A DNA stretch of 64,000 bases, taken from Mucidula mucida (Eukaryota; Basidiomycota; Agaricomycetes; Agaricales; Physalacriaceae). The notes under the pieces are model-generated. The model was not told the DNA's origin. It did no database searches and saw nothing but the letters and a program-made list of their open reading frames with translations. The DNA lies in the NCBI GenBank assembly GCA_015501055.1, contig JADNYV010000089.1, forward strand, positions 80,330 through 144,329. Direction: 5' to 3'. This document shows, one piece after another, positions 24,901-61,592 of the stretch. The position numbers and the translations under genes are program-made. Each line of letters begins with the position of its first letter. Position 1 is the first letter of the stretch.

Positions 24901-26169
24901 CAGTCGGCGCGTCTTCTGTCCTTCCGCTAGGACTTTCCCGTCTCTGCGGAGGAATCGCACCTGACCTCCTTTAAATGAGGCTTCCATCCCGGCGTCATCG
25001 AGTCTGCTGATGGAGATGAGGTTGTTGGCGGCATTCGGGGCAAATAATGTGTCTTTGAGCTTGTGAGTGATAGTTTGCCCATTGACTTTGCAGTCTAACA
25101 GGACTGTTCCTCTGCCCACAGCTTTGATTGCGATGTTTCCGATGCCATTGATGGAGGTTGCCTCGAGCGGCCGAAAGTCGACAAAGGTAGCGCGGTCATT
25201 GGAGATATGTGACGTTGTGCCTGAGTCTGAGAGCCAGGTGTAACGGGCGAAGTGGTTATCGAATTGCGGTTTCGTCTCCGCTACGTGGTAAGACGTCTCG
25301 ACTACATCATCGTGGGCATTCCCTGACTGGGCCTGGTTAGATCTCTCCTTCTTCCTTTTGTTCCTGCCCGGGCCTTTTCCTTCCTGACCGCCACCCTTTG
25401 ACCAACATTGGTTCTTGGTGTGGCCTCGTTTGTGGCAGTTAAAGCACTCAACATCGTCGGATACTCTCCCTGACGTGGAGTCTCTGCCATTCCAGTTTCT
25501 GCCTGTCTGTCTTCCGCTTCGCGCGTACATGGCTGATTCGCCCTCACCAGACTTCTCCTTTCGGCGTCGGTTCTCTTCCTGAATGATGGAGATGAACTCG
25601 TGGGAGGTAACGGTGGGGTTATTTCCGGTAGCACCAAGGTACGCTGATGTGAATTGGTCCCAGGACTCAGGCAATGAACTGATGAGTAGCATTAGGAAGT
25701 CTTCGTCGGTGACGACACTTCCCAATATGCCGAGTTCTTCCTGGACGCGGCGCATTTCGGTGGTGTGTTCGGTGATGTCTGTAGATTCGTCGGCAACGGT
25801 GCGGTAAAGACGGCGGCGGAGTGATAGTATCCCTAATTTTCCTCTAGCTTCCTTCACTAACTTCAGCTGCGACCACATTTTGGCTGCTGTCTTGGCTCCC
25901 GCGATATGTATCATCTGCGAGTCACTCAAGGTGAGCTCGATTTGTGTCTGCGCTCGTCCGTCTTCTTCTTCCCATTTCCTAATTTTGGTTGCTTCCTCCG
26001 TAGTGATGTTGTTGGCATCTGCCGGCACGGGGATTTTGGTCGTGCCGTCGGCGTACTTCAAGAGACCTTGTTCTCGCAAGATCGCGGTGACACAACGCTT
26101 GTACGGAACCCAGTTGTGCTCTTGGAGGAGCTCAATACGGAAGAGCGATGAAGGGAGAGAGTCGGACAT
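22000..26169 (-). CDS. Copia-2 Gag-Pol polyprotein
   Basis: This is one uninterrupted frame of 1389 residues, a normal length for Ty1/copia. Gag occupies about 1-235. The zinc knuckle CFNCHKRGHTKNQC is at 242-255. The aspartic protease site DSG is at 315-317. A pre-integrase region has HRKMGHLG (453-460) and CEACIQ. The integrase core has Asp519, Asp582 and Glu618, a D,D-35-E spacing. A low-complexity Pro/Ser linker (about 745-850) follows. RT has QMDIKGAYL (Asp985) and WVDDLL (1070-1071). RNase H near 1235 has GYSDADYA. The start ATG lies about 75 bp inside the 5' LTR. No frameshift is needed for Pol, so the Gag:Pol ratio must be set another way. Confidence 0.97.
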   Translation of the reverse strand: MSDSLPSSLFRIELLQEHNWVPYKRCVTAILREQGLLKYADGTTKIPVPADANNITTEEATKIRKWEEEDGRAQTQIELTLSDSQMIHIAGAKTAAKMWSQLKLVKEARGKLGILSLRRRLYRTVADESTDITEHTTEMRRVQEELGILGSVVTDEDFLMLLISSLPESWDQFTSAYLGATGNNPTVTSHEFISIIQEENRRRKEKSGEGESAMYARSGRQTGRNWNGRDSTSGRVSDDVECFNCHKRGHTKNQCWSKGGGQEGKGPGRNKRKKERSNQAQSGNAHDDVVETSYHVAETKPQFDNHFARYTWLSDSGTTSHISNDRATFVDFRPLEATSINGIGNIAIKAVGRGTVLLDCKVNGQTITHKLKDTLFAPNAANNLISISRLDDAGMEASFKGGQVRFLRRDGKVLAEGQKTRRLYLMKACARVVAPEQSNVAETSNKDTWDAWHRKMGHLGKAGLERLKREGLVEGLTISDDSPPLSQCEACIQAKMTLRPFPQEAKNRCKQPGELTHGDIWGPARVESLQKSKYSITFTDDATRRCRPEFLKQKSESFRKMKEYITFIKQQDGVKPKVIRVDNAKELTGGEVKAWLKKEGIHLQTPAPYAHSSNGVAERFNRTLVELARAMLIARGLPSFLWECAVEYAAYIRNRAPTRALEGKTPEEAWTGKKPDISHLREFGCPVWVKREGKNLSKLGGNSSKATKHTFVGFSDDPVVIKYYDAGLRSIRESRNYEFVQPAPAVDVENIDNMRLEGETGGASDPQLPEKSEQDTDQQKKEAPTAVNPPIMPPTIPKPSQIPKPPSGPIRRSSRTATDHNYAKLNNPNARSSQTSRIPRPSPSEHSPPESANLAVIQSYLAGNGEHMDRDDFPRSLAEAQASLEWPKWKEAMDEEISMLHQMGTWELNNLPDGRDVVGCRWTFIKKYDEHGQVSRYKARLVAQGFSQIPGVDYTETFAPVVRLESVRAALGIAAIEHLEIGQMDIKGAYLNGELEEEIFMKQPPGYNDQSGRVCRLVKTLYGLKQSGREWNKEFDRKLTSIGFSKLDADYCVYKRIQNGQKVLITVWVDDLLIFAETNDDLEATKSQLKELFEITDMGEPKKIIGIEIERNRSNGSISLSQEQYIDGILTRFGLHNVSPVSTPLDPNVILRKRQEDGEVKSTIRSGYQSAIGSLMYAAIGTRPDIAYAVQTLSQFSSNPGPEHWTAVKRVFRYLSGTRNYKLTFRANEEQEVICAGYSDADYASNPDDRKSISGYTFLMGGAAFAWSSKKQSTTALSSTEAEYTALAHSTRQAIWNRNLLEGLGYPQEEPTLVFEDNQSTIAIAHDPQYHARSKHFDVQNHFVREKVEHGIIELAYCPTDEMVADIFTKALPRPKHEKFVRELGLMPA

Positions 26170-26231
26170 TATGGTATGTGTTTTGGTGAGGTAAGTTGTA
26201 TAGTGAGTCTTGGTATAGTTTAGTTAAGGTT

Positions 26232-28050: not shown

Positions 28051-28322
28051 CTGGCTGCAAGAACACTTTAATATCTCAACCTGAATGGTGCAGATCGTAT
28101 GTATGGGTCCGTACTATTTGACTAACAATGACATGTCAATAGAAAATGACCACCCATGGGAAGAGAATGTCGGTCAGCCTGATCTGAAACATTCGTGGCA
28201 AGCAGTTTATTTCAATCTCAAAGGCGCCGTACATTTTCTCCAACTTCCATGAAACACGTTGCGTCGCATCCTTCCACGCTTGTTACCTTTTCGGTCTGTC
28301 GCGCTGCATTGACTAACAGTAA
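28051..28322 (+). promoter_or_regulatory. Part of a third KD upstream region, cut by the gypsy element
   Basis: This matches 12.2-12.4 kb (TCGTGGCAAGCAG, then TTTCAATCTCAAAGG). It ends at the gypsy target site AGTAA. The match resumes at 36154 (TTGTTCTGCATTACTC) and then at 38705, so unit C has been split twice by insertions. Confidence 0.55.
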
Positions 28323-28851
28323 TGTTATGAATCGCCATATTTTCACACTTTCACATCTTATCATATCTTATCGGGGGCCTTGTCTTATCAACCAACGGAC
28401 TGTTTCATCATCTGTTTCGTCACCGATCATATCCTTTTTCATTACCGAAGCCGTACTCATGCCGGACACACGTCCAACACATGGATGACATCATACATGC
28501 CGATACCTCATGGACTCCCTATTGTATACACACCGCCGACACTCGTAGTACACATAGTCGTTTCAGTATTATTACTTACATGCAGTTACCACTCGTATTT
28601 AATGGTTTCACGGACTAGTAGCATACAACACTGGGTCAAGGGCGTGGAGCATCCCTAGTGGAAACGCGTATGGACAAGGAGTCTCAAACACAGACTTACT
28701 AGTATATAAGCAGTAGTGTAGTATCATTGTACTTTAGTTCCGATCTCGTTTATACACCTGGCCTAGCCTAGTCTTACGAACGCGAACACTTTCTTCCTTA
28801 GTTCTTGCTGTGGTACCTGGTTAAGTCTCGTGGCTTAGTCAGTCGCTAACA
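28323..28851 (+). repeat. Gypsy 5' LTR
   Basis: This direct repeat of 35620-36148 contains TATATAAG near 28701, a probable core promoter, followed by a T- and C-rich stretch. Confidence 0.95.
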
Positions 28852-29450
28852 GAAGATCGGAACTACTTTCTACCACCTACCACACATCCCTGATCGTCGA
28901 TCAGCACTTCGCTGTTTGATCATCGCACATTTCCCTGTTCCCTTTCCCTGTTTACAGATCGACGGATTCCTAATTCCAGCGCACGTCCGCATACATGTGT
29001 ATTGGTCCCAGTAGCGCCGGCTAACAGTTAGAGATAACTGCCTCGGGTGCTGGAAGTAGCCGCTCTCACGAGAACAAACTTTTGGCAGTTGCACTTCAGT
29101 GGGCGCTGTTTACGGGTCAACCCCCGTTCCCAGGAAAACTTCGGCTTACCTCACACCAGAGGGACGTCGGCTGGGCAATTGCGAACTTGTGACGAGCTCT
29201 TGGGCTCCGTAGATACGTAGTCAGTAGTCGGTAAAATAGTGTAGACAGTTACGATACCTACCTACTTTACTTACCTTACGATACACATCATCATTCCCCA
29301 CCCTACCAAGTCCTGGATTCTATTTCAGATCTAGGCGATCCCTCCCTATTCATCCAAACCTCTATTCCCTCACCCGTTTCATCCAAATCCGCATCACCTA
29401 TATCCCCACTTTCACCCTTTCACTCTCCGATCCCATCACCCCGATCCATC

Positions 29451-30380
29451 ATGTCCAACGAAGCACCCAAAACCGCTCCTCACACACCCGCTCATCACGC
29501 TGATGTCGAAATCAAAGGCCGATCCCTTGTCAACAAGCCTTACGACTATGACGGGGACAAGTCCAAGTACAAGAGCTGGTGGTGATCAATGTTCACATAC
29601 ATCCGTGACAAGAAGAACAACCTCACATCTGACTCCGAAAGGATCGATGTTGTTCTCTCCTACATCCGAGGAGATCATGTAGATGCATGGGTCCAGAACT
29701 ACTCGGACCAGAACTTCGATGAGGAAGAAGAGGAATGGACAGTCTCTTGGACGGAGTTCAAGGAAGACTTGAAGGAGCGATTTGTGGATTCCAATCTCGC
29801 GCGAGACGCGCAAGACCAGATCGAGCGGTTGCGCCAGGGGCAAGACACTGCTCAAGACTTCTTCTAAAAGTTCGAGGTCCTGCTCACTCAGGCAGGATAC
29901 TCGAAGGATGATGCATTCGTCGTGCGACTTCTCGAGACCAATGTCAACGAGAAGATCATCAACCAGATCTATGGCAGCCGAGATGGGTTGCCAGAGAAGT
30001 ACAAGGATTGGAAGGCACAGATCCTTCAGATCGATCAGCTATGGAGAAGGCGGGCGGCGAGCAAGAGGTCCAGCATGCAGTCCCGGCCTCAAGCTCCGCA
30101 GGTGGTTACATCGAGAGCTAATCCTACAAACCCACCTCCAACGCCGATCACACAACGAGATGCTACCGGTGTTACCTATGGAGGAGCCGGCAGGCCGATG
30201 GACATCGACAACGCACGTCGAAGAGGACTTTGCTTCAGCTGTGGCGAACACGGCCACGTCAGCAGGTTCTGTCCGAAGAAGGGTCGACCCCAGACGATTC
30301 GGGGTTTATGGACCGAGATGAATGACGAGGAGAAGAAGAAGCTGGCCGAAGAGTTGGGTTTTGCGAAGCTCCCGCAGTAG
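29451..30380 (+). pseudogene. Gypsy gag with two nonsense codons
   Basis: The start ATG is in CCATCATGTCC. The frame reads 44 residues to a TGA at 29583-29585, resumes in the same frame (FTYIRDKKNN), meets TAA at 29865-29867, and again resumes in frame (KFEVLLTQAGYS). The capsid-like helical domain is followed by a zinc knuckle CFSCGEHGHVSRFC near 30231. The frame is constant throughout, so both stops are point changes. Family comparison suggests Arg (CGA) and Gln (CAA) codons at these sites, which is inference. Confidence 0.85.
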
Positions 30381-30439
30381 ACGCAGTCCTGCCGGAGCAG
30401 TCATCAAGGAAAGGGTCGTCAGATGCAGAATCTATTTAC

Positions 30440-33075
30440 AGTACGGGTACTGAAACATCTAAAATATCATCGACGACTTTACCACCAAGACCTGCGAAAG
30501 AAAGATTTGAGCCAAATACGCCCGAGTGGATCGCACAACGGCTAAAAGAGGATGACATGTCGAGAGCAGTGGGAATTTTGAGAGCATGGATGCCGGAGCG
30601 GAGAGAGAGAGAAGCGACGGAGGAGAAGGTGATGGTGATCAGAGCGTTGACAAAGGAAGCCGCGGTGGAAGTTGTGACGGAGTTGAAAAAGTCGAGGAAG
30701 TACATCCGGGGAACAAAGGGGCGGGACATGAAACTCCGAGTAACCATAGAGAGCGTACACACAGGCTCTGAATGGGAAACGAGTGCCCTTCTTGACAGTG
30801 GAGCAACGGGTTCTTGTGTCAATAAAGAATTCGTCGAGAAGAACGGACTCCCGATCAAGGAGTTACCGGTCAAGCTCCCTGTCTACAATGCGGATGGAAC
30901 CCTAAACGAGGGAGGAGCAATTGAAGGTTTTGTGGAGGTCCGGATGAAGATCGGCGATCATGCAGAAAAGATTGAGTTGGCCGTCACCAATCTTGGCAAA
31001 ACAAGCATCTTTTTGGGGCTAGATTGGCTACGATATCACAATCCCACGATCAACTGGACGGAATCCACATTGACCTTTGATTGATGCCCAGACCGCTGCG
31101 GCTATCTACCCAAGTACAACTCACCGGAAGATAAAGGAGAAGACGTAGAAGAGAAGTTGGAAGAGGGAGAGCGTTTGTTCTGGATGGACTGGGACAACTA
31201 TCGCAAAAGCGGTGAAAAGCTGAGATCACAACAGCCTTCATCCGCTGCTGCACCTTACATCGAGGAATTTTCCGATGTATTCAGCAAGGCGGACTTTGAC
31301 AAGTTACCGGAGCGAAGACCCTGGGATCACGCGATAGAACTTATGCCTGGTTCCAAACCGGTTGACTGCAAGGTTTATCCCCTTAGTCCATCCGAGCAGA
31401 AGGCGTTAGATGAGTTCCTGGAAGAAAACATACGGACGGGACGTATACGGCCATCAATTTCACCTATGGCATCACCCTTCTTCTTTGTCAAAAAGAAGGA
31501 TGGAAGCCTTCGGCCAGTACAAGATTATCGGAAGTTGAACGATATGACAATCAAGAACCGATACCCCTTGCCGTTGATCCAGGAGCTTATTGACAAGTTG
31601 AAGGGAGCAAAGGTTTTCACGAAGATGGATGTCCGATGGGGTTACAATAACATCCGGATCAAAGAAGGTGATGAGTGGAAAGCGGCGTTTAGAACAAACC
31701 GAGGCCTGTTCGAGCCCTCAGTTATGTTCTTCGGACTTACAAACTCGCCAGCAACGTTCCAATCGTTCATGAATCACATTCTGAAGGAATTGATTGACGA
31801 CGGACATGTTATCGTTTACTTGGACGATATACTTATCTTTACGAACACATTGGAAGAACATAGGCATATCGTACGACGAGTATTAGAAATATTACGAGTA
31901 AATAAGTTGTATTTAAAACCCGAGAAATGTAGTTTCGAGGCACATACTGTAGACTACTTAGGAGTTATTGTTGGAGGAGGAGAAGTGAAGATGGATCCGG
32001 CAAAAGTGGCCGTAGTGAAGGAATGGAAGGAACCGACGAAGAAGAAGGAAGTACAGTCATTCCTGGGCTTCTGCAACTTCTACCGACGTTTCATCCGGGG
32101 ATTTGCGGGAGTAGCGAAGCCATTGACATCGCTAACCGGGAAGGGCGAGTGGGTTTGGGGCATGGAGCAGCACGAGGCGTTTGAGGGGTTGAAACGGAGG
32201 ATGACGGAAGAACCCGTTCTGATCGTACCACGCGACGACGGCAAGTTTTGAGTTGAGGCAGACTCCTCAAACTATGCAAACGGGGCGGTTCTTTCCCAGT
32301 TGGTTGACGGAAAATGGAGACCAGTAGCCTTTCGGTCTCGCGCGCTGAACGAAGTAGAGCGCAATTATGAGATCTACGACAAAGAGATGATGGCTATTAT
32401 GGACTCGATTGACGACTGGAGACAATATCTCCTTGGAGCAAAGGAAACGGTGGAGGTGTTTACCGATCATCAAAACCTCCAGTACTTCCGGAAGCCACAG
32501 AAGTTGAATTGGAGGCAGGCGAGATGGGTTACGGAGTTAGCGGAGTATGACATACAGATGATTCACAAGCCGGGCAAGACAATGGGGAAAGCTGATGCCT
32601 TGTCAAGGATGACAGGCCTTGAGAAGGGGGAAAAAGATAATGAAAACGTTGTTTTGCTCAAGCCGGAGTTTTTTATTTCACAAATTCAATTTTCTTTACA
32701 TACAGTAGATACACCGGAGGACGAATTACTTAACAAAATCAAACAAAGAAAAGGAAACAAAGACAGATACGTACAAAAAGCATTAGAAAACAAAGAAAAA
32801 GGATGGGAAGAGAAGGAAAATGGACTTATTATGTGGAAAGATCATATTTACATACCGAAGGACAAGGAATTGCGGGGAAAAGTTATTGGAATGCATCATG
32901 ACGCACAGCTTGCAGGGCATCCCGGACGATACAAGACCCTCGAGCTGATCACACGTACCTATTGGTGGCCAGGAATCAGCCAAGACGTCCGTGAATACGT
33001 AGAAGGGTGTCAAAAATGCCAGGTCACAAAGGCACATCGCACGAAGCCGGCTGCACCTCTTCATCCTATTGACGT
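30440..33075 (+). pseudogene. Gypsy pol, first part: protease, RT, RNase H, integrase N-domain
   Basis: The protease has ALLDSGATGS near 30795 and ends at a TGA (31082-31084), where the same frame goes on. RT (31157 on) has KMDVRWGYNNIRI and the catalytic VYLDDILIF. A TGA at 32249-32251 falls at the RT-RNase H border. RNase H has DHQNLQYF. The integrase zinc finger (HH...CQKCQ) lies at about 32.9-33.03 kb. The frame is then cut by the hAT-like insertion at 33084. The reading frame is constant across the stops. Confidence 0.88.
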
Positions 33076-33083
33076 GCCAAGCG
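33076..33083. repeat. 8-bp target duplication of the hAT-like element (left)
   Basis: GCCAAGCG is repeated at 34375-34382. An 8-bp duplication is diagnostic of hAT-type insertion. Confidence 0.85.
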
Positions 33084-33418
33084 TAGAGATGGACACGAGT
33101 CCATACTCGAGTATATTCGGACTCATCGTATGAGTAACTCTTACCTCAAACCCAATACTCAAGACTCGAGTCTTCACTCGAGACTCTACTCGAATATCTA
33201 CTCTACTCGAGAGTACTTCATGAGTCTCGAGTATTCGAGTACTCGAGTACGATCCGAGTATACTCGAGTATACTCACGTATCAGCAAGCAAATTCAAACA
33301 TAAAGACAGTGAAGATTAAAGTAAGTAGGTCGTAAGTGTATCAAGTTATATCCATATCAGTAGCATCCATATCAGTAGTATCCTGAGGTGAAGAAGCAGG
33401 CTTGCGCCGTCGAACCAC

Positions 33419-33820
33419 GTGGGCTTCAACGATCCGCAACCTGACACGGAGCTTGGGCAAGCAGTGCCTTACGACAATTTGGATGCCTCGTCTTTCGGTG
33501 ACCGCCAGATGCAGATTCTCGGTGCACTTTTCAACGGCCGAGTCGTCCCGGAGAGCATTGACTGGGGTCGGATGGGGCTGGCGGCAGCAACGTTTACGGG
33601 ACGCGCGTCTGTCCTGGCTGCTTTGTACCGGGTGATGCGACGCTGGTGTCGTGTTCCACCAATGCCGGCGGGAACTTCACAGGCCGCTCACAAGTTGATC
33701 TGTGGCTCTCTGATGTCAGAACGGGAAATGCGGACTGTTGAGTACGGATTAGCTGAGTACTATGTGGACTGTTACGTTACAGTTTTCGGGCGCGCACCCC
33801 TTCTTCCTCACGGACTGTAG
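33419..33820 (+). CDS. Open frame inside the hAT-like element, unknown
   Basis: An open stretch of 133 residues is present, but the first codon is GTG, so a true start is not obvious. It may be an internal exon or a captured gene fragment. It reads FGDRQMQILGALFNGRVVPE, then an Ala-rich helical stretch and LMSEREMRTVEYGLAEYYVD. No zinc-BED or hAT dimerisation motif is visible. The function is unknown. Confidence 0.25.
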   Translation: MGFNDPQPDTELGQAVPYDNLDASSFGDRQMQILGALFNGRVVPESIDWGRMGLAAATFTGRASVLAALYRVMRRWCRVPPMPAGTSQAAHKLICGSLMSEREMRTVEYGLAEYYVDCYVTVFGRAPLLPHGL

Positions 33821-34038
33821 AGTATTCGTTTTTGTGGACGATTTTGTAGTTTTTTTGTATATTAGATGTATCATACTCTTCACCTGATGCGTCGTATGCG
33901 TCGCTTCGCAACAGTACTCGCATCAGGTTTGTTTGTAGCACAACATTTTGTATGGCCTTCATGGCCTTTGTCCTTTTTTTTGCTAATGGCATTTTACCTA
34001 ATTATGTGTGATCTGGACTGAAATTGTATAATGAATAT

Positions 34039-34125
34039 GCCCTTTTGGCGCAGTGGTTATACTCGTTGTTGTGCTGATGCACAGAAATGGCTGAGCTCCG
34101 TGGGTTCAATGCTCACGGGGTTCAT
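34039..34125 (+). ncRNA. tRNA-like sequence with A and B boxes (SINE-like)
   Basis: TGGCGCAGTGGTTA matches a pol III A box. About 50 bp on, a T-arm folds as GTGGG/CTCAC around TTCAATG, covering a B-box-like GGTTCAATGCT. The acceptor stem does not pair, so it is not a working tRNA. It could be a tRNA-derived SINE head or an ancient tRNA pseudogene. Confidence 0.45.
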
Positions 34126-34382
34126 TTTGTTCAAAAAATATATATTAGGAGCTGAATACTCACGAATACTCACGAATATAAGAATACTCATGAGTATTCA
34201 CGAATATTTATGAGTATGAGTCTATCGAGTATTCGTGGCCCCAAACTGAAACTCTAGACTCACCATAGACTCTAGACTCTACTCTACTCACGTGCGAGTA
34301 TACTCTTGGCTTGCATGATGAGTATGAGTTTATTCGTGAGTACTTTTTTTATTCTATACTCGCGTCCGACTCTAGCCAAGCG

Positions 34383-35608
34383 AGCCATGGGAGATAGTAG
34401 GGACGGACATGATTGGAGAACTGCCGGAATCAGGAGGATACAACGCGATCAGCACGTTTGTGGACCATTTCACAAAGCGATTACGCATCATACCCACACA
34501 CACCACTCTGACGTCGGAACGCATGGCCCGCATTTACCGTGATCGGATTTTCCCCATACATGGGATGCCACGACAGATGATACATGACCGCGGTCCACAA
34601 TACCACTCGCGTTTTATGAAGGAGTTGTACCGGTTGTTGGGCATACAAGGAAACTTTACAACGGCATATCATCCACAGGCAAATGGGCAGACGGAACGGC
34701 TGAACCAAGAGATAGAACATTTCTTACGGTTATTTGTCAACTATCATCAGAACGACTGGCACGAATGGCTACCCTCTGCCGAATTTGTTTACAATGATCG
34801 GGTACACTCGGCAACCAAAGTCACTCCGTTCTTCGCAGACATGGGCAGACACCCTTACAAAGGCACCGCCCCGAAAACGGCATCGAGAAATGAGACTGCG
34901 CAGGAGTTTGCCGACGGCATGAGGAAAACATGGGATGAAGTGGGGTTGGCATTGAAGATGGCCAAAGAGGACATGAAACGGTTTTATGACAAGAAGCGAA
35001 CAGAAGCAGTAGAGTACAAGGAAGGCGACAAAGTATGGCTGGAAGGGATGAATCTCAGCACGGACCGACCAATGAAGAAGCTCGATGACAAATGCTTTGG
35101 GCCGTTCAAAGTGATCAAGAAAGTCGGGACAAGCTCTTACAAGTTACAGATTCCTCACACGTGGAAACACATTCATCCTGTGTTCAATGAGGCCCTGTTG
35201 ACGCCTTACCACGAGCCGCAATTTCCGACGCAACCCCGAGACACGCGTCCACCACCTGCGCTAGAAGGAGCCAAACCAGAATGGGAGGTTGAGAAAGTGG
35301 TTAATTCCCGGAAGTACCGCGGGGGTTTTCAATACGAGGTTCACTGGAAGGGTTATGGCACACACAAACAGACATGGGAACCGGCATGCAATCTCAAGAA
35401 TGCCGACGAACCTATTCGCGATTTCCACCAGCAGTACCCGAACAAGCCGAAGCCACCTGCGCTTGCTCGCATTGAAGTCCCCATGTCGCAATTTCCATCA
35501 CATCTATTCCAACCCATGCCACCGCCTGACACCGAACCTCTTGACGTCACGCTACCCTCTGCGGCCCTCATGGAGCAAATCTGGCGCAGAATGGAACTTG
35601 CGCCTTAA
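34383..35608 (+). pseudogene. Gypsy pol, second part: integrase core and chromodomain
   Basis: The frame resumes right after the nested element. The integrase catalytic residues are in VGTDMIGELP, MIHDRGPQYHS and NGQTERLNQ. A GPY/F-like segment (CFGPFKVIKKVGTSSYKL) follows, then a chromodomain (EWEVEKVVNSRKYRGG, YEVHWKGY, TWEP) near 35.28-35.40 kb, which in chromoviruses steers insertion to marked chromatin. The tail is Pro-rich. This part is open from about 34386 to the stop, but it is separated from its own N-terminal domain. Confidence 0.88.
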
Positions 35609-35619
35609 GGAGGGGGTGA
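35605..35619 (+). promoter_or_regulatory. Gypsy polypurine tract
   Basis: TTAAGGAGGGGGTGA directly precedes the 3' LTR and overlaps the pol stop codon region. Confidence 0.75.
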
Positions 35620-36148
35620 TGTTATGAATCGCCATATTTTCACACTTTCACATCTTATCATATCTTATCGGGGGCCTTGTCTTATCAACCAACGGACTGT
35701 TTCATCATCTGTTTCGTCACCGATCATATCCTTTTTCATTACCGAAGCCGTACTCATGCCGGACACACGTCCAACACATGGATGACATCATACATGCCGA
35801 TACCTCATGGACTCCCTATTGTATACACACCGCCGACACTCGTAGTACACATAGTCGTTTCAGTATTATTACTTACATGCAGTTACCACTCGTATTTAAT
35901 GGTTTCACGGACTAGTAGCATACAACACTGGGTCAAGGGCGTGGAGCATCCCTAGTGGAAACGCGTATGGACAAGGAGTCTCAAACACAGACTTACTAGT
36001 ATATAAGCAGTAGTGTAGTATCATTGTACTTTAGTTCCGATCTCGTTTATACACCTGGCCTAGCACAGTCTTACGAACGCGAACACTTTCTTCCTTAGTT
36101 CTTGCTGTGGTACCTGGTTAAGTCTCGTGGCTTAGTCAGTCGCTAACA
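35620..36148 (+). repeat. Gypsy 3' LTR
   Basis: This is a 529-bp direct repeat of 28323-28851, followed by the target duplication AGTAA. Confidence 0.95.
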
Positions 36149-39159: not shown

Positions 39160-39797
39160 ATGTTGGTCAACGTCCTCTCCGTCCTAACACTCTCCGCGGT
39201 CGCTCTCGCAGCCCCCGCCTTACATGCTCCACTCGAAGCACGCGCTGTGGCCAGAAGAGAATACTATGATCACAAGGACTACAAGGATAAGGACTACAAA
39301 GACACGGACTGCGACGACAAGGATAAAGATTACAAAGACAAAGACTACAAGGACAAGGAGACTTGGGTGGTACGCAGATAGTCTTACGCGTTTAACGGTT
39401 TCGCTAACGCTGGTGTACTCTTCAGAATTGGAACGACAAACACGACGATTGGAAGGATAAGCATGACGAGAAGGACAAGTACGATGGAAAGTACAGACGC
39501 AGCAATGACAAGCACGACGACAAGGATAAGCACGATTGGAAGGACAAGTATGATGGGAAGGATAAACATGACGATAAAGAGAAGTACGGGAAGGATAAGC
39601 ATGATGACAAGTACGATGGGAAGTACAAACGCACTGACGGAAAGGATAACGATTGGAAGGACAAGCACGACTGGGAGGGAAAGCACGATTGGGAGGACAA
39701 GCATGACGGGAAGTACAAGCACGACTGGGAGGACAAGCATGACTGGAAAGACAAGCACGACGGGAAGGATAAGCACGACGACAAGTACTACTACTAG
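39160..39797 (+). CDS. KD3, secreted Lys/Asp/His-rich repeat protein
   Basis: There are two exons, 39160-39369 and 39426-39797, with a 56-nt intron (GTACGC donor, CTAACG branch, TTCAG acceptor), giving 193 residues. The signal peptide, the VARR site and the DYKD repeats in exon 1 are as in KD1. Exon 2 starts NWNDKHDDWKDKHDEKDK and has one unit fewer in the final HDWEDK run than KD1. It ends DDKYYY. Gene X and an NLR do not follow here. Confidence 0.8.
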
Positions 39798-44127: not shown

Positions 44128-47100
44128 ATGGCTGTCGACCCGACATCCATCGTATCCATGATCGAGCAGTGCGTCAAGATCTATGAGTACATTGAAGCTG
44201 TGAAGGAATCCTCTAAGGAGCGACAGCGCTTCATGCAGCAGGTGGCCGCCTTGCGAGACGTGTTCGTCAATCTTCAAGGCCTCCTCCGGGACGAATCCTT
44301 CAGCCAGGACCGTTCATCGATGGCTCCTCTCAAGGTCCTCTTCGACCCGACGAAGCCATAGAGCGGGATCTTGCGGAGTTGGAAGGAAAGCTGCGTGGAG
44401 CGATGAAGAAGAATAGGACCAGATGGCGGCTGTCATGGACGAAGGTGGTAGCCGCTGGGATGTGGCCACTGGACAAAGCCGAGAGCGAAGTTTTGTTCAT
44501 TCGTCTCGAGCGTCACAAGAGCTTGATTTCATTAGCTATGCAGCACGACATCGAGTGAGTCTGATAACAGCGCACTTGAATATCATTGACATGAACTTTA
44601 GTCGGCTCATACACGCGGTTCTCGAGATGGCTGCAGATAGCAAGGGGCAACTGCCCGAGGTCACAGCAGCGGTTGCCGAGTTGACTCAAGTCATCGGAGT
44701 TGCTATCAGCTGTGCGTACATAATTCTCAAACATCTAGCCTTCGAATCCTCATGATCCTTAAGACGAAGAGCGCCGGAAAGTGGCCGAATGGATTTCAAA
44801 TGTCACGTTCTCCGCTTACCATGCTGAGAACTCGCGCAAGTGGTTGAAAGGGACTGGCGGCTGGGTACTGGAGAGCTCGGAATTCCAGTCATGGGTGACC
44901 GGGACCTCGTCGCCGCCTGTACTGTGGTGCTACGGAGACGGTGAGTTGGTCTTCGATGTAAATCGGCGTTTTATCTGACTACCAGCCATCTCAGCGGGTG
45001 CTGGAAAGCCCGTTGCTGCGTGAGTTGCATCGTATACACACCAGAGAGCAGTACTTAACATCGCTCTTCCAGTGCCATGATTGTCGAGCACCTGCGATCC
45101 ATCGCAGGGAATATAGTACTCGTCATTGTGTGCCGATATAACCAGAATCGTGACTCCCTTCGCGAGACGCACGCCTTCATATGCTGCCTGCTTCGTCAGC
45201 TGCTTCAACTCGACGCCACCTCAAGCGTCCCGCCATCGTTATTGGAATTGTACCGAAAGGATATATATCCATCGGAAGATGGCGTTCGTACCCTCTTAAT
45301 CGAGGCAGCCCGGCTCATTTCACGGCCCATTTTCATCGTTCTCGACGCACTCGACGAATGCCCTCTCGGATTTGATCTCGTGGCCGCCATTGAAAGTTTG
45401 GGACACGATTTTAATCTCCTCATTACCTCCCGCGACGTCTTCTCCCAGATAAAAGATTATCCATCTCTCCCCATTCGAGCTGCAGATCGTGACATCCTTG
45501 CTCTCGTTGATAGCAAGATCTCCAAATTGCGTTGGATATGTGAGGACGAGGATCTGCAAAGTGCCGTTCGCAGCGAGGTTGTTGCGAGAGCGAACGGCAT
45601 GTTTCTGTTAGCGAGTCTAACGCTATGGGAGCTTGAGCACGACGTCGCCAGTAAAGTTGATGTCCGAAGGGTGCTCACATCCATTCCTGTTAGTTTAGAT
45701 GATGCATATCACCAGATATTCGTGCGCATTGGCAAACAAGGTGCTAGGATGAAGCAACTTGCTCTTCAGGCCATTATGTGGATTTATGCCGATTTTGGCA
45801 ACCCGGTTAACTGGAATAAGCTGTATTGGTGGGAGCTCAGGCTCGTTTTTGCTTGCAACATGATATCTATGTCCGGATCTGACTTTCCTGAACCGCCATC
45901 CGCAAACACGATTGTGGATGCCTGTGGTGGCCTGGTCAGTGCTCCTAGAGATGTCGCACTTGCACCTGCATTCATCCGTACGCCGTGTTCTAGGTCTACA
46001 CATTCATAGTTACTGATAAGTATACAGATTATTCGGTCCAGGAGTACATTTTCCGCTTTCAGTCTTCTGTGTTTCCCGAAGATCCCTATGAATTTGCTTT
46101 CAAATTCTGTATCACCGCTCTTTCCCGCATAGAAGGGCGCTATGCGACTCGCTTACGCAACAGACTACAAGTTGTATGGTATTGTCTTGCTCACATCCTG
46201 GATTCATATCAGCCTGTTGTTGTTCACTCTGCCTTGGCGGACGAAAACTTCACTAAATGCTTGAGCTACCACGGGCAGATCATCGGTTTACTTCGCCAGG
46301 GCGACGGCGGTTCCACTCCTCTTGATTACGCCGCAATACTCGGAATTCCTCATACATTTGGACTTGCTCAAGAAGTACAGGCTCCGGACGAACGTCATTT
46401 TCGTCGCGTCACGGCCGTCATGATAAAACGGGATTACTGGGACATCGTGCATGAGGTTTGGATAAATGCGGGGACTATGACATTAACGTTTTCTGCGACA
46501 CAAGGGGCACCACCGCTGCATGTGAACTCGTCTCTTCCACCAGAACTTTTCCGCCCAATGGGGAACTCCGCCGGTCATTCCTTCATCACCCAAGTACCTC
46601 CCTGTGTTGCCCACGTCACGATAGTCTACTCGCCTGTGCATTGCGTCGCAATGTCCCGATCTTTTGGTGGTCTGACACCAACAACCGAATTGAGAACATC
46701 AAAATGATCCTCGAACGCCTCTCCCGCGATGCAACCAGTAATCCCTATCCGCCAGCCCGGTTCCCAGTATATCCTCTCCCAGGTGCTCCAAGATCCCGAC
46801 CCCCAAAAATCCTGGATGTCATCGCAGTATTCCTGCAGAGAGAGGATATCGATCTTGATGCGCACATCACGCATATGGTACCCCCAGAATTATTGCTTGC
46901 GCTGTTGATGCTTTCTCAGGAACCTGTCATATTTCTTCAAAACCCTTTCCTACCCCAAAAAAAGTTCACAGAAATTTTACGCCCATACGCGCGACGCCTG
47001 GTTGATGTCTCCAATGAGCTCGATGACCAAGTCGTTTCCGATTCCGGGCGGGCATTCGAAGCAGTCGATACATATCGTATGCCTGCAGTACTTCTTCTTG

Positions 47101-47168
47101 TTGTTGTAGCTGCCGTTGCCCTTTATTTATATGTGGCGCCGCCAGCGCTGCGCCTATCGATACAGTAG
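44128..47168 (+). pseudogene. NACHT (STAND) NTPase with C-terminal membrane segment, probably disrupted
   Basis: This is the most complete NLR in the window. The N-terminal helical domain starts MAVDPTSIVSMIEQC, as in basidiomycete NLR-like proteins. Introns (44555-44601, 44941-44994, 45020-45072) surround a small exon with the P-loop GAGKP, where family members have GKT/S. The Walker B-like IVLDALDECP is at about 45330, the sensor LLITSRDVFSQIKDY at about 45420, and a winged-helix-like KVDVRRVLTSIPVSLDDAY at about 45660. The C-terminal half (LDYAAILGIPHTF to FWWSDTNN) ends with VVVAAVALYLYVAPP, a membrane helix. Breaks: a 1-base shift near 44340, uncertain frame near 45970-46020, and a 1-base shift near 46475. 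Such proteins sense non-self or stress by nucleotide-driven assembly; this one is probably inactive. Confidence 0.75.
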
Positions 47169-47195
47169 ATGTTCGTCAGAAACTCGATATTAACT

Positions 47196-48982
47196 ATTAA
47201 AAAGTGTAATACTGATACCTGTATTTGTACGAAAGATTTTTGTATATGCACTGATCACTAAGGACATGGCGGGAAATCGATCGTTGAGTACGCGAAGACC
47301 AATATACGAACACAACGGCTGTTCGCTGTTCACTGAACTCGCTGCCTTTAAGACGATTTCTGCACAACCGTCCGCTGCGGTCATCAGGGATCAACCAGTG
47401 TACACGATGCTGGTATGTCCTAAGTAGGATTGAGAGGATCAACCGAAACTCGTTGGCATCGCCACCGATCCAGGACGCCAGGACGGCCTGGAGTCGATGT
47501 ATGGTCGACCGAGGGCCGTCGAGCGCAATGCACGAGTGGGCTCGATGTACAGGGCGGTGGGCACCGACTGCCACTAGGACGTGATGGTTGCCGCGGAAAG
47601 TCTCTGGAGCTATGATCCAACATGCCTCGGATTTTAGACGAGTAGAGCCAAGTATGACCACCTGCTATGCCCAAGCGCACAGACGACTACCACAACTCCG
47701 TATACAGACTCTCTACAAGGACAACGTGCACACATAGAGCCTTGTCGGAACGGCGCCTATGACATTCCATAGCAGAGCTGGACGGCACAAGGCAAGCCAA
47801 TGCGCATTCATATGCAGGTGGTGAGTTCGCGTAGACAATCAGCGAGGTCGGAAAATCTGGGGAGATCGTCATTATTCGAGGTGAGGTGGATATACGCGCG
47901 GAGCCCTGTCAGACGGACAAGCTGTTGATCCGCATGTGCATGTCGCGCCCGACTTGGTGCATTGAGTACCTTCCATGCCCCATTCAGAACTGTCTTGAGT
48001 GCATTTGGAATCGGGGGGAAGAGAGCGGTGTACGAGCAAACGAGGGTGATAACGATGCATATGGAGAGAACGATGGAAAAGACGCGGACGTCCTGGGAGC
48101 TGCCGCCGTGGCACGATATTTAGAGCGGAGAAGGGGAAGTCTGGCCATACAACCTCGGTTCGAAAAGCATAGCTGCATGTAGACGACGTACCATTTCCTG
48201 TATGCCATTCTAATTTGGTACTTCTTCCCCTTCATGAATTGATATTTGCAGGAAGGCTAACGCCCATCTCGTCGATATTCCATCCGACCTGGCGGTAATG
48301 GTGAAATCGAGAGAAGGGCGGTAGTATACGACCATGCGATCAGGAAAGGCCGCAGACGACCTGGTAACCAACCGCCGTCGCCGTGCAGTATTTAGGCAGA
48401 GGGAACTAGCACGTCCTACTAATATACATGACGGTCAGAAAAGCGCAGGCCAAAAGCAGACGACGTACCCAGTTCTCGGCGCTATTCTCAAGTACGATTT
48501 CTATGCATTCGCCAATCAATAGTACCTACATGAAATGCAACGTCCATCTTGGCGACACAATTATGTATATCCAGGAATAAGAATGGAATCCATTTGCGAT
48601 TTTCGAAGCACGGATGCGAAAGTGGTGGATGCCAGGATGATGGTAGTTAAAGTAGGTCCTGTTCAGAGTATGTAAGCCTTTTCATAACATGGTGTAAAGA
48701 TGTTGACATACCCATTATTCTGCGGTTTGATTAGAGCAGGAAACGAGTCTGCGAATTGGTTCTAGTCGGAAAAAGAATCCGTCGAGGAATTCTTTCCATT
48801 GGATCATGGTATCAGGATGATATACGAACAGTATACGAGCGTAGCGTCGGTGCAAAGTCAATGAGTATTCCGTTAGGGCACGAGGTGGCAAAGAGCTGAC
48901 GACGCAAAAGAGATTGGGAACACACCAAATTGGTGGTAGGAAGGAAACCTGATAAGTGACAAAACGTGACGTGTTCATACCA
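47196..48982 (-). CDS. Gene X copy vi (inverted copy of copy iv)
   Basis: This mirrors 13770-15556 with about six visible substitutions in the 3' part (for example R to W in LASWIGGD and L to R in LLRTYQ). Modules and probable introns are as in copy iv. It converges on the NLR end with about 30 bp between. Membrane segments are predicted from hydrophobic runs. No known family is recognised. Confidence 0.4.
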
Positions 48983-49099
48983 TGAATGCGATGCGATCAA
49001 TGAAAGTTAATACAAGGTGTCCGTGGGGAAGAAAAGTCCTAGAGCAGAGCGAAGTACGGGTACAGTAGATAGGTACAAGTCAGAGCGCGACGAACATGG

Positions 49100-49732
49100 C
49101 TAGTAGTACTTGTCGTCATGCTTATCCTTCCCGTCATGTTTGTCTTTCCAGTCATGCTTATCCTCCCAATCATGCTTGTCCTCCCAATCATGTTTGTCCT
49201 CCCAATCATGTTTGTCCTCCCAGTCGTGCTTGTCCTTCCAATCGTTATCCTTCCCATCGGTGCGTTTGTACTTCCCATCGTACTTGTCATCATGCTTCTC
49301 CTTCTCATACTTCTCTTTGTCGTCATGTTTATCCTTCCCATCATACTTGTCCTTCCAATCGTGCTTGTACTTCTCGTCGTGCTTATCATTGTTGCGTCTG
49401 TACTTTCCGTCGTATTTGTCCTTATCGTCATGTTTATCCTTCCAGTCGTCGTGCTTGTCATTCCAATTCTGAATACGGCGGGGTTAGCAAGAATGTTAAA
49501 CGCGCATAGGTTGTATGCGTACCACCCAAGTCTCCTTGTCCTTGTAGTCCGTGTCTTTGTAGTCTTTATCTTTGTCGTCGCAGTCCGTGTCTTTGTAGTC
49601 TTTATCCTTGTAGTCCTTGTGATCATAGTATTCTCTTCTGGCCACAGCGCGTGCTTCGAGTGGAGCATGTAAGGCCGGGGCTGCGAGGGCGACGGCGGAT
49701 AGTGTTAAGACGGAGAGGACTTTGACTAACAT
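49100..49732 (-). CDS. KD4, secreted Lys/Asp/His-rich repeat protein
   Basis: The exons are 49732-49523 and 49468-49100 with a 54-nt intron. The translation is identical to KD1 over all 192 residues. The TATA box TATATAAG is at about 49789-49783 on the minus strand. Perfect identity fits a very recent duplication or ongoing gene conversion between the arms. Confidence 0.8.
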
Positions 49733-50905
49733 GTTTGTAGAGAGGAGTGGGATGGATGTCGACTAGACTAAATGATCAGTGCTTATATACGCGACGCAGA
49801 GAACGCAAAACGACTGAGGCGTCGAACACACATGGACATGACGGTGGTAAAGCCAAGGCGATGTGTAGGGTGTGTGTTCGGGCAAGTAGCGAACTTTACC
49901 TTGGCGCGGTCACGTTGCCAGGATGAGACATTCGAGCTACACCTTCGTCGAGGTTGCGGATATAACGAGCCGTTGACAATGTCTTTAGCCGAGCAAAGCT
50001 GTCGGGGAGGAGCGGCGCCGAGCCTCCACACGGTTGCAGAGGTACCTAGGTTTAGGATGGCGTGCGTACGTTCGTGCTTGAAAATATCGTGAATGCCAGC
50101 TTGGCGAGCTCATGAAAGCCTCAGCAGAGGAACACAAGCGGCTTGGTAGATAATTCGAGGATCAACGGCTCACGTATGTCTACAAAACATATTGATGAGT
50201 GTTGATTATTGTAGCGCCACAAACCTTGGAGTCAGTTCTCGCCTTTGGGCGACTTGCGCGCTCCTTCAGTTTACGCAGGGAAGGAGAAGAATGTGATGAA
50301 TTACGAGGAAATGTCGACTAGAGATGTGATTGCTAGGGTGGAGGCGACCGAGTCTGACGTGGAACGACGCAACGCGACGCGTCACAGCTGCTTCATTGAA
50401 ATGGGTGCAAATGTACAGCACCTTTGAGATTGAAATGCTCTCTGCTTGCCACGAAAATTGAGACATCCTGGCCGTCATTCTCCTCCTATGGGGGGTCATT
50501 TACTATATCACTGTCAGTCATTTAATATTGCGGAACCCATATATACGATGTACGCCTTCACCGGCGAAGAGATATCGTTTCCTTGTTGTTGCTTTCGCGA
50601 AAATTGTATGACGGGGTCTGTACGCGTATGTAGACGTTAACCATGGAAAAGAGGAAGCCAGCGGAGTTGCGGGCCGGTGTCCCATCTCTTACCATGACCA
50701 TCACCAACGCCCAGAAATGCGACAACACACCGGCTAACAATATCGAGCCTTTCGACCGACTGGCCGCCTAGCAATATCACCACCATTGACTCAACATCAT
50801 AAAACGAAATTGTTGGCAGCCAGCCTGGCTTTTGCCATGTAAAAGAGTGCGCGCGCTGGGGGCTCAGTATTGGAACGCTATGCATGGTACGCCGCCGTCG
50901 ATGCT

Positions 50906-51508
50906 CCTCGTGTCATTCTCATACCTTTTTTCATGCAGATATGGTCTTTGTCTCATTGCTTCCATCAAAATCCCAGCGCTGGCGTACGTTTGTTCGCGGG
51001 ATAGAGACGCTTCTACGATGGTGCGTGCCCAGGGCGTATGTTTGCCTTTATCTAACGACTCTCCTAGTCGTCCCAGCAATTCGTGAATTGGAACGTATAC
51101 AGGGAGATACGTTTTCTCGACGATGAGTAATGCGAACCTCAAGCCAAACGTCCGGTCGAATGTTGGAATAGTGCCGGCGATGAAGATTCAATGATGTAGA
51201 CTGTCAAGGCCCTTATGCCACCGACGATTATCGCGCTGTATACGCGAAGGCTTACGCGCTCACGGCTGGCCGCTTTTGCTTCCACCAAACTCTCAACTGA
51301 TCCTCTGAAGACTTCCAGTTTTGCTGGGTGCCTCGACGACCCCCCCCCCCCCCCCCCCTCCCCCCCCTCCATTTACTATCTCCCCAGTACTCTGTACTGT
51401 CCTATCGTGCTGAAAGTTGCCACAGTTTCCGGTTCAGTCTATGATACATCGTATTTCCGAGATAGGAACGATGCAAGAGATCTTAATCGACGGGGTACCG
51501 TGTGTGCA
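50906..51508. repeat. 603-bp segment present only in the right arm
   Basis: The flanks GATGCT and TTACGG are contiguous in the left arm. The segment contains the 5' part of a Y copy (GSVYDTSYFRDRNDARDL) related to 16.2 kb and 10.7 kb, so it is ancestral sequence that was deleted from the left arm, not inserted here. Confidence 0.8.
51340..51369 (+). repeat. Poly-C tract
   Basis: A run of 19 C is followed by T and a further C-rich run, inside the 603-bp segment. It is prone to slippage and to assembly error. Confidence 0.9.
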
Positions 51509-51775
51509 TTACGGCCCCCAGTCCATATCGCTTTCGAAGAACCTCTCTGCTGCTTCCATGCCCTACCTCCTTCATGGCGGACACCATGGTGCAGATCATC
51601 GAAGTGAGTTTTACGACATCGCCCCGTTGTTGTCTTTTTGGCTTCCCGTGATGAATATTTAACTCAGCTCACTTCGACGCACTGCGCATGAGACCAACTT
51701 CTTGTTTACTCTGATTTTATTATTCTTGTCTCTCCTTGTTTATGTTTATGTTCGGAAATCTGACAGCTGTTTTTG
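51430..51775 (+). CDS. Gene Y, right-arm proximal copy (longer 5' end)
   Basis: The frame opens upstream at about 51215 and includes LKVATVSGSVYDTSYFRDRN, then EEPLCCFHALPPSWRTPWCRSS. A 64-nt intron starts at 51604 (GTGAGT...ACTCAG) and the next exon encodes a hydrophobic helix with a basic tail ending KSDSCF. Unlike the left copy, the 5' part is kept. Function is unknown; it is a small membrane protein at best. Confidence 0.4.
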
Positions 51776-52443
51776 AAAGGTCGGGCAGGACGGGAAAGTC
51801 GATTGATACAGGAATGCTGGTGCTGCACTGAGCCTAAGGTTCGTAGTGTGTCTGATTCGCAGCATAGAGACGCTTCTTCCGATGGTGCGTGCGCCCAGTG
51901 TATATGGTTGCCTATCTAATGTTTCTTTCAGTAATCCGTGAATCGCAGCTATATACCGCAAGACACTTTGGATTGTGGGAGATGCAAGCGCGGATTCCAA
52001 TGTGTGAAAAACGTTTTCCCATCGTACGTGTACTTACCGTCTGGTTCTATTTGTAGTTGACGTGTCAGGCAGGAGCTTATATGACCTTGACGGTGCTCGT
52101 CTAGGACCACGCTATATCTGCGGAGGCTCCTATCCTGCCTCGATTAACTCTATCATGACCCCAAGCTTCGCCGGAAAGGTCACGCCGATTCGTTCTCGCG
52201 ACATCTAATAACACTTCCAGGAATCGTGAGGCGGAAGCGTGAGACGACCAGTAATGCCAGAATCGAGGCCTTCAGTCGAATATTGCAATAGTCAGCGATG
52301 CCGATTTCTGGAGTGGGCCGACGCTGATAGTGCTCGACGCTGTATATCCTGAGGCCACCACGGATAGATGCTTTGTTTTTGTACGTTGCTATGCGTACAC
52401 ATTCGGCCTTATCTAATACTATGAAGCCTCAAAGTTTCGCTGG

Positions 52444-52971
52444 ATGTCTCGACGGCTCTTGAGCGTACACCTATCATGGATGATATGGTACCCTTCGTCC
52501 GTAAAGACTACAAAATTCGGGTCAACACATGGATTTCTACTCCCGACCGCCCCGACCATTTGCTGTCTACGCAGTACTCTTACTCCCCCGTCGCGCTGCA
52601 AATTGCTATCTTTGTGGGCTCAGTCTACGTTTTCGATACGGGAACGAGGCAAGATACTTAATTGATGGGGTTGTGGCTATGGCGACCAAGTCGCACATCT
52701 TTCTAACTTTCTTTCGTATCTGATATCAGTTATAGCTTATCTGTCCCATATCATACATGGCGGCCCCGCGTTCCTTTTCGAAGGGCTATCACTGATACTC
52801 CCTTCGCACCATGGTGCAGAGTATAAAAGTGAGTTTCTCGGCCTCGTCCTGTTGTTGTCTTCTACCTTCCCGTGATGAAACCTATAACTCAGCTCACTTC
52901 GACGCACTGCGCATGAGACCAATTTCCTGTTTACTCTGATTTTATTATTCTGGTCTCTCCTTGATTTTGCT
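52444..52971 (+). CDS. Gene Y, right-arm distal copy
   Basis: This mirrors 10385-10912. The exon has DYKIRVNTWISTP and LQIAIFVGSVYVF, and a 64-nt intron at about 52829-52892 precedes an exon with a membrane helix. As in the left copy, a stop precedes the donor in the helix-encoding frame. Confidence 0.35.
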
Positions 52972-53693
52972 CGGAAATCTGACAGCCGTTTTTAAAAGGT
53001 CGGGCATGGCGGGAAAGTTGATCGACGCAGCAATGCTGGTGCTGCTCTGAGCCAACGGTTCGTATTGTGCTCTACCTTTGCATCTAAAACTGACCTTGGG
53101 ACCAGTTTCGTTCGCACTGGTTCTCCCCATCAACAGGCGGTCAGCCGAAGAGGCATAGACACCGCCGACGTTTCCCTCTGTATCCCATGGCCATCGCGAC
53201 CTACGGTTTTTATACGGCACGCGGAATTCCTCTCGCAGTATCATGTCTACCGTCCAACGGTTGCCGTTTTTCGTGAGGACGGGCTTATCGGAATAAGTGA
53301 AGCTTTCGCTCGCAAATGAGGAACCGTTTGGTTGGGTGATTACCGAGAATACAGGTCAGTCTTACGCGGTCGCGCCTCTTTCTCTGTTGTCTTATGTCCC
53401 CAGTAGTGCCGTCATGTAACGGACGCGTTAAGTCGTCTACGTCGCATATATCCTTCGTGCACCCGCCGCTCCACCCGCCTTTCGTTATGTAATACAATAT
53501 GTTATCCAACAATGAGACTACGGTGGCTGAAGTCAATGGTTGACCGGCGACACCTAAGCCGTCGGAGGCCATGTTTGCGATGCGGTAAGCTCTTGTTTCT
53601 ATTCACTGCCTTTATGCTGGACTGCATCAAAAGATCCTGGAACTTCACGCCCTTCACAAACGCCAGGGCCTTGAGCGCGCACAAATCTTCAAC

Positions 53694-60482: not shown

Positions 60483-61592
60483 ATGCGATTCGATATCTTC
60501 GTTGTCCTCACCTCTGTATTTGCTGCTGCTGCGGCTCTAGTAAGTCCCGTACCTGTCTCCGCAAGTCATGCAGCTGATCTGGGCACAAGGACGAGCGAAG
60601 CACCTGGAAACCTCGGGGAAGTTCCCAGGCGAGGGGGGAAGCCAGTGTTAGTGTTGGTGTCGCCGCCCTGTAGTAGTTTGACCCTCTCAACCGCATCTAG
60701 GTCATTGAAGCGGAGAAGCGCACCGACGATATCCACGTCAACGTAGGCATTAGGCTTTTCTTGTGCGCGCCGACGCTGACCGGCTTTACGGAATATGCAG
60801 CTTGTGGGTGCCGGACAGTCGTGGAAACGGGCGGTATGCCGTTATCGCCATTCAGTATTCGCTGAATCTGTAACTGCTTGCGATAGGTGGTCGATGGGGA
60901 TGACAATCTAAAGCGCGAGGCGGTGAGTGAAACTCCTAATCAATGCGGTCTTTGTCCTCATGAACATGCCAAGCTCGTTGGGGCTGGACAGTCGTGGAAG
61001 CGAGAGGCCGAAGCCGTACGTGGCGAACATATCGACGCTATAAGTATGGCGACTTATGCAACACTGATAGATGGTCGGAGCTGGACAGTCGTGGAAGCGG
61101 GAAGCCGATGCCGTACGTCACAAATGTCCACAAGGAGAATTAACGTCTGATAAGTACTGACAGATGGTCGGCGCCGGACAGTCTTGGAAGCGTGATGATG
61201 CTGAAGCCGTGCGTGCATCGCGTGAACGCTGGTACGACCTATACTCACGACACGTTAATAGGTTGAGTTGCGGAAGGTGTCCATGCGTGAGGCGGATCCC
61301 GTGCGTTGAGCTGATAGAGCAGGTATAATTACTGACACCGCCATAGATGGTCGGCGCGGGACAGTCCTGGAAGCCGCGCGAAGCTGCACCTGTAAGTCGA
61401 TGTTCATTCCAGAAGGACACAGCTGGATTAAATTTTGATCTTCTAGATGGTCGGTGCAGGCCAGTCATGGCGACGTGATCCTGAAGCGATGGCGAAGCCT
61501 GTCAGTGCCTTTCTTGCAAAACACCGGTATTGTTAGACTGACCAGCCGCGTAGATGGTTGGAGCAGGACAAAGTTGGCGTCGAGACGACTGA
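60483..61592 (+). CDS. Kex2-processed repeat peptide precursor (seven VGAGQSW cores on micro-exons)
   Basis: The start MRFDIFVVLTSVFAAAAAL is a signal peptide. Phase-0 exons then follow: 60701-60742, 60801-60833, 60887-60922, 60974-61015, 61071-61112, 61164-61208, 61262-61300, 61347-61391, 61447-61500, 61554-61592, with introns of 46-58 nt. Seven exons encode M/L-VGAGQSW followed by KR, RR or KPR and mostly an EA/AP-type spacer. Three are variants without the core (for example VVDGDDNLKREA). Kex2 would cut after the basic pair, and a Ste13-like dipeptidase would trim X-Ala/X-Pro spacers, releasing [M/L]VGAGQSW. The 5' part is uncertain: either one exon 60483-60644 (192 residues in total) or two, 60483-60539 and 60590-60646 (176). 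The acceptor before 60974 is AAG, which is unusual. Secreted signal or RiPP precursor; no named family is recognised. Confidence 0.85.

Follow-up and report, generated by a model that had tools for sequence, protein, structure and literature searches.

On the forward strand of the window, by which we mean the entire 64-kb stretch of DNA analyzed here, positions 60483–61592 hold eleven phase-0 exons that join, as read from the sequence, into a 157-residue frame with a TGA stop codon at 61590–61592. The exons of this gene, named KEP-A, measure 57, 42, 33, 36, 42, 42, 45, 39, 45, 54, and 39 nt, and all ten introns are GT..AG, phase 0, and 46–161 nt long. The translation opens with a hydrophobic N-terminus, continues with a short pro segment that contains a single KR site, and carries seven [M/L]VGAGQSW cores (two LVGAGQSW and five MVGAGQSW) that start at 60801, 60974, 61071, 61164, 61347, 61447, and 61554. 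Each core sits on its own exon, with at most one core per exon, and the basic sites directly after the cores are KR (four), RR (two), and KPR (one). An earlier note on this DNA had the coordinates, the count of seven cores, and the KR/RR/KPR sites right, as judged by the exon chain and translation; its description of a Kex2-type repeat precursor spliced from micro-exons and yielding a Trp-ended heptapeptide or octapeptide is borne out by the sequence reading.

Exon 1 (60483–60539), followed by a gtaagt donor, encodes MRFDIFVVLTSVFAAAAAL. The highest 12-residue Kyte–Doolittle mean is 2.53, from residue 5, a measure of hydropathy only, and the hydrophobic N-terminus resembles those of KEP-B and KEP-C, two further precursors in the same genome; hydropathy and the likeness to KEP-C lead us to call exon 1 signal-like. 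Intron 1 (60540–60700; 161 nt) contains 11 open phase-0 micro-exon candidates of at least 9 nt if the introns on either side are required to span 40 nt or more, and may conceal a micro-exon. The pro segment VIEAEKRTDDIHVN, with its KR site, comes from exon 2 (60701–60742). Core 1 follows on exon 3 (60801–60833; LVGAGQSW-KR-A), preceded by TDDIHVN, which is not a STE13-type spacer. Exon 4 (60887–60922; VVDGDDNL-KR-EA) is coreless and provides KR-EA ahead of core 2, located on exon 5 (60974–61015; LVGAGQSW-KR-EAEA). Cores 3 and 4 lie on exon 6 (61071–61112; MVGAGQSW-KR-EADA) and exon 7 (61164–61208; MVGAGQSW-KR-DDAEA). Exon 8 (61262–61300; VELRKVSM-R-EADP), again coreless, carries a single-Arg site and a STE13-type spacer ahead of core 5 on exon 9 (61347–61391; MVGAGQSW-KPR-EAAP). 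The last two cores are found on exon 10 (61447–61500; MVGAGQSW-RR-DPEAMAKP) and exon 11 (61554–61592; MVGAGQSW-RR-DD-stop). By DNA likeness, exon 4 is a weak candidate for a decayed core repeat (280 of 5000 codon shuffles score as high) and exon 8 an unsupported one (3416 of 5000). For a duplicated exon–intron unit we make no claim: five of 36 intron pairs exceed z = 2, with a maximum of 2.7.

The window also holds mobile and duplicated DNA. A large inverted duplication occupies 9663–16102 and 46650–53693, with one 4.3-kb piece at 99.8% identity and one 2.2-kb piece at 99.6%. A Copia-type element on the reverse strand (22003–26223) retains one 1407-residue open frame with gag, integrase, and reverse transcriptase domains. 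A Ty3-like element (28319–36148) has RNase H, integrase zinc-binding, Tf2-1-like SH3, and chromodomain matches and is flanked by two direct copies of 533 nt, whose near identity (99.4%) suggests a recent insertion. Four related low-complexity frames rich in Lys, Asp, and His are located at 13132–13637, 18638–19157, 39272–39780, and 49115–49620; the one copy scanned has no Pfam match. Nine open reading frames flanking KEP-A (four at 42–64 kb of the window and five downstream on contig C144) gave no Pfam match above cut-off, so no cluster is evident around the gene.

KEP-A is a well-supported gene, beyond what chance would produce, and this conclusion rests on the constancy of its cores in the face of synonymous divergence. 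Within the window, on both strands, VGAGQSW-coding DNA is present at the seven cores only. In the 59.9-Mb genome, the 21-nt VGAGQSW pattern has 14 matches, seven in the gene (contig C926) and seven on C144, and its reversed control has none. Among the seven VGAGQSW segments, 8 of 21 nucleotide columns vary and no residue does; six of the variable columns are third positions, and the other two are a TCN/AGT serine switch. Over 21 pairs, pS is 0.70 and pN is 0.042, the latter solely from the serine switch, and the other two reading frames of the core DNA are not conserved. C926 and C144 share 99.3% identity over the 8.6-kb stretch containing KEP-A, and we read them as two haplotypes. Their copies of the gene are distinguished by two substitutions and a 7-nt indel, each of them intronic, leaving identical coding sequences. 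One substitution and the indel fall in intron 1; as the indel would disrupt a frame there, it supports this part of intron 1 as intronic. That the exons are chance open frames, or the gene is decaying and untranslated, is extremely improbable. Two coreless exons, and the presence in the window of two LTR retroelements and a large inverted duplication, speak for such a reading; the constant residues at a pS of 0.70, the intron-only haplotype differences, and ten GT..AG phase-0 introns speak against it.

The segments between the cores indicate how the precursor would be processed. Counted from the nearest Arg, the spacers to cores 1–7 are TDDIHVN, EA, EAEA, EADA, EADP, EAAP, and DPEAMAKP. Six of the seven are exact runs of X-Ala/X-Pro dipeptides, 13 pairs altogether; among 200,000 shuffles of the spacer residues, none reaches six of seven and 15 reach five of seven. 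By their sequence, these spacers are the STE13 trimming signature of ascomycete alpha-pheromone precursors (PMC6339444, PMC9769878). They did not figure in the earlier note, and they point to alpha-factor-type trimming over dikaritin chemistry.

A dikaritin-type RiPP precursor, from which KEX2 would excise a core for oxidation or cyclization by UstYa-type enzymes, is a highly unlikely identity for KEP-A. UstA-type precursors, which combine a signal peptide, repeated core, and KEX2 sites, resemble it in plan, and UstYa (PF11807) does occur in the genome, with 15 exon-level matches on 10 contigs. The layout alone is also non-exclusive: of 7878 KEX2-processed repeat proteins (KEPs), Umemura (2020) reported 76 similar to six basidiomycete STE13-type precursors, with DUF3328 genes near 17 of the 76 (PMC7329392). 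Against this, the core lacks Tyr, and its X-Ala/X-Pro spacers suit STE13 trimming, a signature described as absent from toxic cyclic tetrapeptide and epichloecyclin precursors (PMC6339444). The UstYa genes that the earlier note proposed to seek on the flanking scaffold did not turn up: all 15 matches are on contigs other than C926 (144 kb) and C144 (72 kb), in a search that disregards introns and that a much-split gene could escape. C926 ends 2.4 kb from KEP-A, but C144 reaches ~38 kb beyond the gene.

Candidate processing enzymes are encoded in the genome; our domain searches of contigs disregard introns, and match counts are lower bounds. A STE13-like gene on C227 (DPPIV_N, with Peptidase_S9 in the next exon) has a counterpart with the same scores on C590, the two copies being read as haplotypes, and its protein has an apparent N-terminal membrane segment, judged by eye. 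A KEX2-like gene is found on C305 and C340, again read as two haplotypes, with P_proprotein above cut-off and Peptidase_S8 above cut-off in the neighboring exon; the P-domain single-exon fragment, scanned separately, fell just below its cut-off (20 versus 21). The P-domain search returned this one KEX2-like gene pair, and it may have overlooked further kex2 genes, since three are reported in Coprinopsis cinerea and other agaricomycetes (PMC9769878). Peptidase_S10 has 45 exon-level matches in the genome, left unsorted. Two of them, at C926:41700–42307 and ~99 kb from KEP-A, mark a carboxypeptidase that is no more than a candidate for KEX1, a member of this family. KEP-A thus combines repeated cores between KEX2 sites with a KEX2-like gene in the genome, two marks of a KEX2-processed repeat protein, and X-Ala/X-Pro dipeptides before six of its seven cores with a STE13-like gene, two marks of the STE13 type.

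Our main reading, to which we assign a probability of about 0.82, is that the KEP-A product is a KEX2-processed repeat protein of the mushroom Mucidula mucida (Agaricales, Physalacriaceae), laid out like alpha-factor and processed to a linear octapeptide. The protein would enter the secretory pathway, where KEX2 would cleave after KR, RR, and KPR and probably after the lone Arg that exon 8 supplies. A KEX1-type carboxypeptidase would take off the basic residues, and a STE13-like enzyme would strip the EA, DA, DP, AP, MA, and KP pairs. An octapeptide is expected because trimming would presumably halt at Met-Val or Leu-Val. Processing would release about six copies of a linear octapeptide, [M/L]VGAGQSW, some of which might be shortened further to VGAGQSW, and the first unit would yield TDDIHVNLVGAGQSW as well. 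Counting against this reading are core 1, which lacks a STE13-type spacer, core 5, which relies on a single-Arg cut, and the coreless exons 4 and 8, as well as the one KEX2-like gene pair set beside the three published kex2 genes and the fact that our protein searches returned no precursor of this layout from other species.

The most likely role for such a peptide would be that of an extracellular signal other than a mating pheromone, a judgment we hold in even balance. Six kep genes of C. cinerea were knocked out with no apparent phenotype (PMC9769878), so a signaling role for KEP-A is a guess. The same linear peptide could instead be structural, antimicrobial, or aimed at hosts or competitors and not a signal to the fungus itself, which we consider somewhat unlikely; the processing is the one assumed in our main reading, so the two probabilities overlap. 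An interaction with the biotic environment was suggested after the lack of an axenic phenotype, and Ustilago Rep1 peptides are reported to form fibrils (PMC9769878); nevertheless, a short octapeptide with an invariant core and no charged side chains appears more ligand-like than membrane-active or fibril-forming.

It is scarcely probable that KEP-A makes a mating pheromone that signals through pheromone receptors. The alpha-factor-like layout would suit one, and STE3 gives 27 exon-level matches in the genome, including a STE3-type gene ~15 kb from KEP-C on C804. None of these matches lies on C926 or C144, however, and KEP-A has no CaaX motif, its C-terminus being WRRDD. Although basidiomycete a-type mating pheromones are likewise small peptide products of mushrooms, they differ from KEP-A, with its signal-like N-terminus, in being synthesized in the cytoplasm and prenylated (PMC9769878). 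The identical coding sequence in both haplotypes is also unlike a mating-type-specific pheromone. There were zero STE2 (PF02116) matches, in a search that gave no signal in any control genome and leaves the absence unproven. In two ~3.5-kb loci at the STE3 genes of C804 and C559, an unspliced scan found no CaaX frame of at least 16 codons. Three STE3-type receptor loci lie within ~106 kb on C14 (7364–8430, 44696–45693, and 112714–113732), a cluster that fits what we would expect of a pheromone-receptor mating locus.

KEP-A has company in its genome. KEP-B carries GNGQSW/AGQSW cores and KEP-C carries QYAPGGGKPW cores. A protein search with KEP-A returned a frame with GNGQSW-KREA repeats (P0001; E = 6.2e-4, or 0.008 in the genome search), which is a single read-through frame of KEP-B at 100% identity, found on C1 and C1000; the latter is probably the second haplotype of the C1 locus. 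The spliced KEP-B model contains 10 GQSW units. Over the ~1.4 kb compared, the sole exonic difference between C1 and C1000 is at L046:5801, a silent change in the third base of an AGC/AGT serine. On C1, an MCM-domain gene lies within ~3 kb of KEP-B (L046 5167–5807 and 7805–8551). KEP-C (L048 3814–4208; C804:11814–12208), with QYAPGGGKPW-type cores and KR-EA/EP spacers, came to light through a weak match on C804 (E = 1.04). The spliced KEP-C model equals an annotated Mucidula mucida protein over all 90 residues, so splicing by our logic reproduces a publicly annotated gene. A P450-domain frame adjoins KEP-C, and the STE3-type gene, a long open frame at C804:27191–28222, is ~15 kb away; as the genome has several STE3 loci as well as three KEPs, this proximity may be chance.

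The three precursors follow a common plan: a signal-like first exon bounded by a phase-0 intron, then a short exon, then ...SW/PW-KR-EA/EP repeats. From this plan and their GQSW/GKSW ends we infer that they are related by descent; their direct matches are weak (E = 0.096 for KEP-A versus KEP-C). Genome-wide, the pattern S-W-K-R-E-[A/P] has 15 matches, solely in KEP-A, KEP-B, and KEP-C (one in the reversed control), and W-K-R-[E/D]-[A/P] followed by W-K-R has 11, solely in KEP-B and KEP-C (again one in the reversed control). Such core patterns would miss genes with RR sites, with AGY serines (first pattern), or with many introns. A genome search with KEP-C retrieved only itself and KEP-A. A broader and doubtful proposal is that the three precursors are hormones of a non-mating, alpha-factor-like signaling system of mushrooms that acts via an orphan receptor, possibly an extra STE3-like one, for which the STE3-type gene near KEP-C would be the first candidate.

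Protein searches with KEP-A and KEP-B (E up to 1) and KEP-C (E up to 10) returned no precursor of KEP-A layout from another species, the KEP-A search being limited to proteins of 0.55–1.75 times the query length; the further VGAGQSW-repeat precursors that the earlier note had proposed to look for thus did not emerge. The KEP-A search returned no named protein for the gene, P0002 being an unsourced 87-residue frame of KEP-A itself. P0003 (E = 0.026), whose VGAGxSW-like repeat lacks KR sites, was taken as a chance likeness, and P0004 is KEP-C itself. A full-text literature search retrieved no paper for VGAGQSW and two for SGVAADW; supplementary tables of surveys, which may list the sequence, are outside its coverage. 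The word "undescribed" in the earlier note consequently holds for the VGAGQSW sequence in the full-text literature searched, but not for the kind of precursor, as STE13-type basidiomycete KEPs have been published (PMC6339444, PMC7329392, PMC9769878), beginning in our citations with the report of Le Marquer et al. (2019; PMC6339444).

Precursors of alpha-factor type in basidiomycetes are a standing puzzle, as these fungi mate via a-type pheromones (PMC6339444, PMC9769878). The present genome provides three precursors of the same plan with defined candidate peptides, together with a STE13-like gene. The calculated [M+H]+ values are 835.377 for MVGAGQSW, 817.420 for LVGAGQSW, 704.336 for VGAGQSW, and 648.274 for GNGQSW. 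With 11 exons, at most one core on each, and no named protein returned, genes such as KEP-A may be overlooked by KEP surveys based on proteomes.

Among known systems, the alpha-factor precursor of Saccharomyces and the alpha-pheromone precursors of ascomycetes share with KEP-A basic sites with X-Ala/X-Pro dipeptide spacers and a repeated core, and their signal peptide has a signal-like N-terminus as its counterpart in KEP-A. The core sequences of alpha-factor and KEP-A are unrelated by eye, and a Pfam scan of KEP-A with an E limit of 1 gave no match, hence no MF_alpha. KEP-A would therefore be alpha-factor-like in its expected processing while lacking three marks that we tested, namely the MF_alpha domain of ascomycete alpha-pheromones, a UstYa match on its contigs as for dikaritins, and the CaaX end of lipidated mating pheromones.

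Closer parallels come from other mushrooms. C. cinerea KEP 490115 and the related basidiomycete KEPs with Trp-ended cores have X-Ala/X-Pro spacers, removed after KEX2 cleavage in Pichia, and cores that end in SW (QYKAPSW, QMRPPSW). Expressed in Pichia, KEP 490115 gave QYKAPSW with the pairs removed, and some of its products possibly arose from single-Arg cuts (PMC9769878). The core sequences of this group differ from that of KEP-A, and KEP-C has a similar Gln-Tyr start and Trp end. According to Vogt et al. (2022), Pleurotus ostreatus KEP 1091723 yields MSGVAADW, SGVAADW, and LSGVAADW in fruiting bodies; this protein and P. eryngii KEP 1439342 are, like KEP-A, STE13-type agaricomycete KEPs (PMC9769878). 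The Pleurotus cores also have eight residues, with Met first (or Leu in P. ostreatus), Gly at position 3, and Trp at position 8, and they also occur without the first residue (PMC9769878). The KEP-A core differs from them at positions 2, 4, 5, 6, and 7, and, from the core sequences alone, we regard the likeness as a resemblance of layout. Judged by its sequence, KEP-A is a newly found STE13-type KEX2-processed repeat protein of Agaricomycetes, a class described in 2019–2022.
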